From positions 62,001 through 126,000 of the forward strand of contig PLCN01000014.1 of assembly GCA_003134785.1 (NCBI GenBank): a DNA stretch of 64,000 nt, written 5' to 3'. Shown here piece after piece: positions 13,851 to 34,014 of this stretch. The first letter of the stretch is position 1. Each line of letters opens with the position of its first letter. The position numbers were made by a program, and so were the translations under genes. This DNA is from Spartobacteria bacterium (GTDB lineage Bacteria; Verrucomicrobiota; Verrucomicrobiia; Chthoniobacterales; UBA10450). The notes under the pieces were generated by a model. It worked only from the letters and a program-made list of their open reading frames with translations, ran no database searches and was not told the origin of the DNA.

Positions 13851-13932
13851 GCACGCGTCTCGCGTGCTGGTTTCGGCGTCTCGCCGAAACGATCTTTTGA
13901 AAAGTTCGCGACCCCGAAAGCTTTCGGGGTCG
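13851..13932. repeat. Composite of three short palindromes (family G)
   Basis: Three perfect hairpins in a row: GCACGCGTCTCGCGTGC (13851-13867), TTTCGGCGTCTCGCCGAAA (13871-13889), and a 24-base palindrome at 13909-13932 with core CCCCGAAAGCTTTCGGGG. The last core reappears inside the two tRNA remnants at 33558 and 33950. It lies between ruvB and xseA on the transcribed strand. Confidence 0.85.
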
Positions 13933-33491: not shown

Positions 33492-33519
33492 TTGACACTT
33501 GGAAGCCGCGGGATTCAAT
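33492..33519 (+). promoter_or_regulatory. Putative sigma-70 promoter of the tRNA region
   Basis: A perfect -35 TTGACA (33492-33497) and a -10-like TTCAAT (33514-33519) are 16 bases apart. Transcription would begin near 33526, six bases before the upstream tRNA remnant and about 90 bases before the intact tRNA, so both would be in one transcript. Confidence 0.5.
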
Positions 33520-33531
33520 TTGTCGCGCGTC

Positions 33532-33600
33532 GCCAGGGTAGCTCAGCGGTAGAGCAGCCCCGAAAGCATTCGGGGTTGATCGATTGTGAGAGAATCGGAG
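33532..33600 (+). pseudogene. tRNA remnant: 5' part with anticodon arm replaced by a palindrome
   Basis: The first 25 bases (33532-33556) are identical to the first 25 bases of the intact tRNA at 33618 (acceptor 5' strand, D arm). At the position of the anticodon stem-loop stands CCCCGAAAGCATTCGGGG (33558-33575), then TTGATCG in place of TTGGTCG. The T arm and acceptor 3' strand after that are not recognisable. It lacks an anticodon and cannot decode. Confidence 0.8.
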
Positions 33601-33617
33601 GATAAATGGATTTTGAT

Positions 33618-33689
33618 GCCAGGGTAGCTCAGCGGTAGAGCAGGGGACTCATAAGCCCTTGGTCGGGAGTTCGATTCTCCCCTCTGGCA
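33618..33689 (+). tRNA. tRNA with CAT anticodon (tRNA-Met, elongator type)
   Basis: A complete cloverleaf: acceptor GCCAGGG pairs with CTCTGGC, D arm GCTC-AGCGGTA-GAGC, anticodon loop CTCATAA with anticodon CAT, T arm GGGAG-TTCGATT-CTCCC and discriminator A at 33689. CCA is not encoded. The acceptor pair 1-72 is G-C and the anticodon stem lacks the three G-C pairs of initiator tRNA, so it is an elongator tRNA-Met or a lysidine-type tRNA-Ile. The stem has one mismatch (A-G) next to the loop. Confidence 0.93.
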
Positions 33690-33690
33690 C

Positions 33691-33945
33691 CTTCTTGACA
33701 CGGCTTGGGTTTACATCCTTCGCGGATCATCCGGTCGCCACTACATCGGATCGACTGTCGATCTTGATGCCCGCTTCGCGCAACATCTACGCGGTCACAC
33801 TGCGACAACGAAACGGCTCGGTGGAGCACTGAAGATTATTGCGAAGAAAGAAGTCGCGACGTTAGAACAGGCGCGCGAAATCGAGCGTTTGCTGAAAGCG
33901 AAAAAGAATCCAGAACTTGCCATATTTCACATCACGCGAGAGTAG
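33691..33945 (+). CDS. Minimal GIY-YIG nuclease domain ORF without canonical start codon
   Basis: Directly after the tRNA an uninterrupted frame reads [17 protein letters not shown] from 33706, then [20 protein letters not shown] and [17 protein letters not shown], and ends with TAG at 33943. This is a complete small GIY-YIG fold: VYI and YIG strands, the catalytic Arg in LDARF, His in QHLRGH and Glu in AREIE. The 79 codons have no break, which argues against old decay. However, the frame from its last stop (TAA inside the tRNA at 33652) has no ATG, GTG or TTG before the domain, so initiation is unexplained. The stop codon overlaps the D-arm remnant of a second tRNA copy. It could be a mobile nuclease relic that used the tRNA as its target. 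Confidence 0.6.
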
Positions 33946-33998
33946 AGCACCCCGAAAGCTTTCGGGGTTGGTCGGGAGTTCGATTCTCCCCTCTGGCA
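33942..33998 (+). pseudogene. tRNA remnant: 3' part with anticodon arm replaced by a palindrome
   Basis: GTAGAGCA (end of D arm, 33942-33949) is followed by CCCCGAAAGCTTTCGGGG (33950-33967) in the place of the anticodon arm, and then by 31 bases (33968-33998) identical to the variable loop, T arm and acceptor 3' strand of the intact tRNA. The 5' acceptor strand and most of the D arm are missing. It is the mirror case of the remnant at 33532. Confidence 0.8.
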
Positions 33999-34014
33999 CT
34001 TCTATAATGGCCTC

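Follow-up and report, generated by a model that had tools for sequence, protein, structure and literature searches.

A tRNA-Met gene in the window, the 64,000-nucleotide stretch of DNA analyzed here, is split at its anticodon arm into two halves that enclose a complete tRNA-Met and an open reading frame (ORF) for a GIY-YIG endonuclease. Relatives retain the unsplit gene at the same site, and the arrangement recurs in several tRNA genes. On balance, positions 33558-33967 probably represent a small mobile, homing-type cassette that carries the nuclease together with a replacement tRNA and has split the native gene. Cutting by the nuclease, mobility of the cassette and a role for the palindromes at its ends are what we infer from this arrangement.

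Anatomy of the split tRNA-Met gene

All features of the locus (33492-33999) lie on the forward strand. The outer 5' half (half A, 26 nt, 33532-33557) is followed by the left palindrome, CCCCGAAAGCATTCGGGG (33558-33575), and by a TTGATCG remnant with spacer (42 nt, 33576-33617). The intact tRNA-Met(CAT) occupies 33618-33691 (ARAGORN; Rfam RF00005, 64.7 bits); it is the single tRNA reported by ARAGORN in the whole window, the only Rfam match there above the gathering score, and the one full-length copy among five tRNA-Met(CAT) matches in the genome assembly. Past the nuclease ORF (33703-33945; 80 codons and a TAG stop at 33943-33945) come GTAGAGCA (33942-33949), a short 5'-half remnant that overlaps the stop, then the right palindrome, CCCCGAAAGCTTTCGGGG (33950-33967), and the outer 3' half (half B, 32 nt, 33968-33999). 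Measured from palindrome to palindrome, the putative cassette is 410 bp long, with space for the tRNA and the nuclease ORF alone and no integrase. Rfam found no group I ribozyme core between the halves in the window, and a group I intron with its endonuclease was rejected on that ground.

A sequence-only reading of this DNA had described two partial tRNA copies with a palindrome around an intact CAT tRNA, the upstream copy keeping the 5' half and the downstream copy the 3' half. That description is correct (33532-33575 and 33950-33999), and 26 of 26 and 30 of 30 compared positions, respectively, are identical to the intact tRNA. The two remnants are, however, the 5' and 3' halves of one tRNA-Met gene split at the anticodon arm, and the GIY-YIG ORF between them had been overlooked. 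The palindrome replaces the anticodon arm exactly, as had been noted, but 15 nt (tRNA positions 28-42), not 16, are exchanged for the 18-nt palindrome; G27 is retained in the upstream copy and missing downstream. The proposal that a hairpin enters tRNA genes at the anticodon arm holds as a description, in several tRNA species, but the hairpin does not come alone. Full loci have two palindrome junctions that bound a complete tRNA, with a GIY-YIG ORF in some of them, the window's included.

In three congeners (G002, G004 and G007) the site holds one intact tRNA, preceded by the gene end and promoter region that also lie upstream in the window; the downstream gene is common to the window, G002 and G007. 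The shared flanks lie outside the outer halves in the window. Comparison of the empty and filled sites thus indicates that the window has 410 bp replacing the anticodon arm. A promoter-like TTGACA-N16-TTCAAT, assigned to the native tRNA, was recognized by eye 5' of the outer 5' half (33492-33519) and aligns in the same three congeners. A consensus promoter scan of the locus reported no sites, this one included, and the scan for intrinsic terminators likewise returned none.

Recurrence, junctions and nuclease in related genomes

The locus was compared by BLAST with 58 genomes, among them its own, and alignments extended past the tRNA at this locus in 15 of 37 family genomes (G000-G036). A pattern joining palindrome and T-loop matched 31 of 83 family genomes, some of the matches being non-tRNA (reversed control, 0), and a similar pattern matched 3 of 387 phylum genomes, all in the window genome's family. 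When other palindromes were allowed in a stricter pattern, 18 of 384 class genomes matched (control, 0), a lower bound in that the copies in the window, G005 and G007 escape this pattern. An exact-pattern scan of public genomes returned 57 stretches, whose titles name Verrucomicrobiota groups bar one ('bacterium'). The protein and loose-pattern searches covered Verrucomicrobiota, other phyla were covered by the one exact-pattern scan, and viruses by two scans. In viral contigs the tRNA-palindrome pattern had no matches, on which a viral origin was rejected, and the GIY scan gave one locus (about 600 nt viewed).

The search of related Verrucomicrobiota genomes for tRNA-palindrome joins, which the sequence-only reading had proposed, yielded 55 distinct loci with at least one half copy (56 kept by the script, less one duplicate): 20 full, 21 upstream-only and 14 downstream-only. 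The loci were mostly gathered by palindrome or window-locus search, so that the sameness of their palindromes is partly by design; the script demands CCCCGA..TCGGGG and misses degenerate junctions (the upstream junction of L054 was read by hand). The tRNA is CAT in 32 loci, of two kinds (GCCAGGG-type and GGGCC-type), Lys(TTT) in 19, Gln in 3 and Arg in 1. A Lys(CTT) case is clear in L201, with L200, L202 and L203 alike and L130 and L144 less clear. At least six tRNA genes have been hit, namely two CAT, two Lys, Gln and Arg. Loci found by protein carry other hairpins, in a tRNA-Pro (L166) and in another CAT tRNA (L168); a tRNA-Ser locus found in the same way (L167) has a stretch resembling a 3' half but lacks a clear palindrome. 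The genome G199, a single contig of 5.96 Mb, has a full tRNA-Met locus and also a tRNA-Arg followed by three tandem GIY-palindrome-3'-half units. Tandem upstream copies number two in L127, two in L125 and three in L150, and L127 has a further mutated copy just upstream (74-nt period). Some palindrome copies stand 29-43 nt from a tRNA with no nuclease between. The structure is also seen in a MAG titled Akkermansia muciniphila (L115, L134), a label that looks doubtful.

The junctions are alike across loci. CAG stands directly 5' of 45 of the 46 palindromes in upstream half copies and of 31 of the 36 in downstream ones (82 half copies in all), the sole upstream exception being a D-loop palindrome in L111. 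Across 41 loci, each represented by one upstream copy, identity to the native 3' half is at least 0.88 for 6 nt after the upstream palindrome and then falls to chance. Before the downstream palindrome (34 loci), the last 6 nt are at least 0.85 identical to the native tRNA and the seventh 0.74; further 5', part of the D-loop is at about 0.5 and the remainder near chance. By about 15 nt from the palindrome, the lost half of each copy is down to chance identity, and the kept halves have mean identities to the local tRNA of 0.955 (n=42) and 0.951 (n=34). These profiles indicate that both junctions share a core of about 30 nt (6-7 nt, palindrome, 6 nt), and, judging by sequence, the shared cores resemble the junction pairs that flank inserted elements.

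The outer halves closely match the inner tRNA in 18 of the 20 full loci, with at most two differences per half (the outermost copies being used for tandem loci), which points to duplication or gene conversion; in nine, the window's among them, both outer halves are identical to it. The exceptions are L110, which has a decayed 3' half (19/23), and L159, whose outer acceptor strands (GGGCCCA and TGGGCCC) pair at 7 of 7 positions, the inner ones being GGGCCTG and CAGGCCC. The outer halves of L054 match a GGGTCGG-type tRNA-Lys at 25/27 and 29/31 positions and the GGGTTGG type, to which the inner tRNA belongs, at 22/26 and 26/31. L159 and L054, the only loci with a clearly different inner tRNA, would thus have a foreign tRNA sitting inside a native tRNA gene. 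Their outer halves agree and the inner tRNA is of another type, as insertion of a tRNA-carrying cassette predicts.

The window ORF matches Pfam PF01541 (GIY-YIG) at E=1.2e-11 and the GIY model at E=4.1e-40. The Y, G, R, H, E and N positions are invariant in 12 GIY sequences; we take these to be the catalytic positions, and on that assumption the catalytic residues of the domain are intact. The predicted structure of the G019 relative (mean pLDDT 90.3) is a bare GIY-YIG domain; the 80 residues of the protein form a single catalytic domain, and no DNA-binding domain apart from it is predicted. The nearest solved structures in Foldseek were the GIY domains of UPF0213, Slx1 and UvrC, with weak E-values (best 1.4e-3). 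In the window, codon 33700-33702 is ACG, where relatives such as the aligned G019 have ATG, and the ORF has no in-frame ATG, GTG or TTG start. Because of this replacement the ORF is easily missed and is absent from ORF lists, and for the same reason the window copy may be dead, a fossil; its nuclease is probably inactive or poorly translated. For 28 ORFs of 75-90 aa that are free of stops, a few apparently start-less, dN/dS has a median of 0.31 (range 0.11 to 1.23; 26 of 378 pairs, those with dS<1.5), which shows purifying selection on the nuclease across relatives. The sole pair above 1 is L054-L124, one member of which appears decayed.

At E<=1e-12, the 288 phylum genomes searched gave 12 GIY matches, all of which adjoin a tRNA (within about 150 nt) or sit in its tandem array; together with the empty alleles in G002, G004 and G007, they suggest that the tRNA gene would be the target of the nuclease. 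At this threshold GIY is present in 12 of 18 hairpin-bearing class genomes (G017, G019, G199, G321, G016, G020, G386, G444, G512, G530, G682 and G694) and in 9 of the 288 phylum genomes, a sample that includes some of the 18. In G682 GIY and the hairpin copy are on different contigs. The other six hairpin-bearing genomes (G535, G599, G608, G622, G638 and G642) have no GIY match or a weaker one. A GIY tree was built from 30 rows hand-picked among 73 extracted sequences (41 distinct), truncated or frameshifted ones being omitted; its tRNA and lineage labels (e.g., 'Lim') were assigned by hand, the latter provisionally. In this tree the Met rows fall together (support 93/86), the Lys rows make up two groups, four 'LysLim' rows are ungrouped (3 changes), and 4 of 27 inner branches are well supported. 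The GIY sequences cluster partly by tRNA type, a pattern that vertical descent would fit as well as homing.

At a tRNA-Lys locus of G016 (L060, L061; C12, about 150,760-170,500) the GIY ORF is interrupted by about 19.7 kb with inverted ends TGT...ACA that share TTGTCCAAAAA. The insert presumably resembles a Tn7-like transposon, and the tRNA-GIY locus itself appears to have become a landing site.

Origin of the split genes

If the locus is a homing-type cassette, the nuclease, most likely free-standing, would cut tRNA genes that lack the cassette, and repair of the break would copy the cassette in from a donor locus, with the flanking tRNA halves serving as homology. Alternatively, repair might re-copy or duplicate the local tRNA next to the nuclease gene, as SegB amplifies tRNA segments in phages. 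The palindrome would mark the break and silence the displaced copies, and the cassette would supply or duplicate a working tRNA copy, as phage SegB and the fungal mORFs suggest. Recombination between the repeated halves could give rise to the upstream-only and downstream-only forms. With the native copy destroyed, the host would depend on the cassette's tRNA, and the locus would therefore not simply be lost. A bolder proposal, doubtful but worth stating, is that these loci form a new class of mobile element, a palindrome-bounded cassette whose bare, Slx1-like GIY-YIG nuclease would recognize the hairpin or branched DNA of a tRNA gene instead of its sequence. Such an element would hence invade unrelated tRNA genes and swap the anticodon arm for the palindrome, and its replacement tRNA would make it indispensable.

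The role of the palindrome is the weakest point of the model, with no mobiliser found beside it. The window has three exact copies, the two at the locus and one outside tRNA sequence at 13912-13929, a copy to which attention had already been drawn. With up to three mismatches, the window has 6 strand matches, whereas 100 shuffles averaged 0.22 and never exceeded 4. Same-family palindromes lie elsewhere in all five genomes tested. CCCCGA-N3..9-TCGGGG is found at 19 places in G000, tRNA-linked ones included (reversed control, 0), and 21 such palindromes, again counting the tRNA-linked ones, are found in G199 (reversed control, 2), where the type is CCCCGAC..GTCGGGG and is likewise present elsewhere in the genome. 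The collected loci have 27 different palindromes, all of the CCCCGA...TCGGGG form that the search pattern imposes. The palindrome at each locus appears to belong to, and to be drawn from, the genome's own palindrome family. Longer inverted repeats above the 95% control level contain 6 of 34 non-tRNA palindromes (about 2 expected), and with only these six exceeding that level the palindrome was rejected as a hairpin-tip inserter everywhere. Y1 transposases are present in 5 of 6 genomes tested (14 Y1_Tnp matches), and at none of the 12 of these loci examined does the palindrome lie within about 1.5 kb on either side. The flanked transposase gene of a REP/RAYT family was thus found at 0 of 12 loci, and a RAYT-driven palindrome was rejected.

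Other repeats and positions were seen in passing. Extra palindromes with other centres are present in tRNA copies of L111, L065 and L129, at the D-loop or the acceptor region, so that the anticodon arm is not the sole place hit. In G002 (L188, L189, L191) the palindrome forms the loop of a longer inverted repeat including GGTGGATCGCGCGCTCCG, a separate dispersed repeat. G199 has a dispersed repeat of about 100 bp with CCCCGACAAGTCGGGG in at least six copies (L174, L175, L176, L179, L180, L185). GTAG directly 5' of some non-tRNA palindromes (L014, L099, L106) recalls GTAG-tagged REPs.

The likeness of the outer halves to the inner tRNA invites a local explanation, in which the GIY-YIG nuclease or replication slippage duplicates a tRNA in tandem, palindrome substitution silences the extra copies, these decay on one side, and nothing moves between loci. 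In 18/20 full loci the outer halves follow the sequence of their own inner tRNA, tandem arrays are present in L127, L125, L150 and the three GIY units of G199, GIY clusters partly by tRNA type, and SegB drives such tRNA amplification in phage T6, according to the available portion of that report (PMC13096335). We nevertheless consider this explanation unlikely, since L159 and L054 have an inner tRNA differing in type from the outer halves, and the same palindrome at the same place in unrelated tRNAs stays unexplained by it. Less likely still is a mobile, REP-like palindrome that inserts at the arm loops of redundant tRNA copies, with GIY a later passenger in a safe site. The same-family palindromes in 5/5 genomes (19 in G000, 21 in G199), the extra D-loop palindromes of L065 and L111, the hairpin copies with no adjoining GIY and the Y1 transposases would agree with it, as would the abundance of REPs in the verrucomicrobium O. 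terrae, taken from the accessible text of the source (PMC3733652). It is countered by the frequency of GIY in hairpin-bearing genomes (12/18, versus 9/288 in the phylum sample), by the 0/12 Y1 loci with a nearby palindrome and by the small number of palindromes in longer inverted repeats (6/34, about 2 expected).

A suggestion of the sequence-only reading, that tRNA-like non-decoding RNAs are made here, belongs to a broader alternative in which the split copies are functional RNA, either tRNA-like or a processing signal for a tRNA-nuclease transcript. When joined, the two outer halves and one palindrome fold into a cloverleaf-like shape in which a long hairpin occupies the anticodon position. 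The fold has -39.6 kcal/mol (z -4.36), much of it contributed by the palindrome alone; the separate half units fold with z -2.4 and -3.1. In the 30 loci that yielded the motif, the GIY ATG lies 5-14 nt past the annotated end of the tRNA, a spacing that release of a leaderless mRNA by RNase Z would predict. The suggestion gained no direct support, however, and a functional RNA seems very improbable: most half copies keep one acceptor strand and have the other half decayed, with identity at chance level by some 15 nt from the palindrome, the outer halves are about 400 nt apart with a complete tRNA between them, and the Rfam tRNA model reports neither half at E<=1. Chance or an assembly artefact, which had been allowed for in case the palindrome adjoined tRNA nowhere else, is practically ruled out by the 55 distinct loci, the single-contig genome G199 and reversed-pattern controls of 0. 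The homing-type cassette itself has observations weighing against it, namely the 6/18 hairpin genomes lacking GIY at E<=1e-12, the palindromes with no nuclease, the bare domain and the start-less window copy. The 18/20 near-identical full loci also argue against transfer, in that local duplication or gene conversion would explain most loci.

Comparison with known systems

Elements are known to land in tRNA genes, at the gene ends. The splits described here fall in the middle of the anticodon arm, with functional replacement of the gene, and they recur in six or more tRNA genes across a class of bacteria. In the window genome the tRNA of the split gene is essential, and a single full-length copy was found. 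If the nuclease drives the splitting, these loci would offer a simple system in which a minimal endonuclease shelters in an essential RNA gene, and a route for the horizontal replacement of tRNA genes. For annotation, a tRNA half and a short GIY-YIG ORF next to a tRNA can belong to a single object. Among the matches listed in a search of open-access titles and abstract openings, none described tRNA genes split by GIY-YIG cassettes in bacteria.

The available text on SegB of T4-like phages describes a free-standing GIY-YIG homing endonuclease beside tRNA genes (PMC13096335, PMC2988022). The enzyme makes its cuts within tRNA genes, and in phage T6 it drives the tandem amplification of tRNAs (PMC13096335). 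Its motif, RAWTSGAAC, is reported at 23/83 sites and, by our own reading, would be the reverse complement of the tRNA T-loop (GTTCSAWTY). The systems share, to the extent of that text, a GIY-YIG gene beside tRNAs and tandem amplification of tRNA and nuclease. The loci described here differ in lying in bacterial genomes, in encoding a bare 80-aa catalytic domain whose cutting is putative, and in having the tRNA gene split at the anticodon arm with palindromes at the junctions.

A second likeness is to the mORF hybrids of fungal mitochondria, which the accessible part of the source places in Allomyces atp6 and in Glomus atp6, atp9, cox2 and nad3 (PMC3630166). There, an endonuclease ORF, mostly of the LAGLIDADG type, enters an essential gene and brings a replacement tail, the native tail being displaced downstream (PMC3630166). 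In both systems, so described, an endonuclease insert supplies a replacement gene part and displaces the native one. Here, in contrast, it is a tRNA gene that is hit, the displacement often affects both of its halves, and the breaks bear palindromes. Replacement by a foreign part fits L159 and L054, 18/20 full loci being near-identical inside and out.

REPs, GTAG-tagged palindromes and their RAYTs, as presented in the available text (PMC3733652), resemble the present loci in their dispersed short GC-rich palindromes, with Y1 transposases in 5/6 of our genomes. In contrast to that system, the palindrome flanks 0/12 Y1 transposases here and has a fixed place inside tRNA copies. Integrative elements with tRNA sites insert in a tRNA gene and restore a working tRNA, and the loci described here are like them in both respects. 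Unlike those elements, the present insert is 410 bp without an integrase, breaks the gene in the anticodon arm and has a core of about 30 nt, palindrome included, at both junctions.
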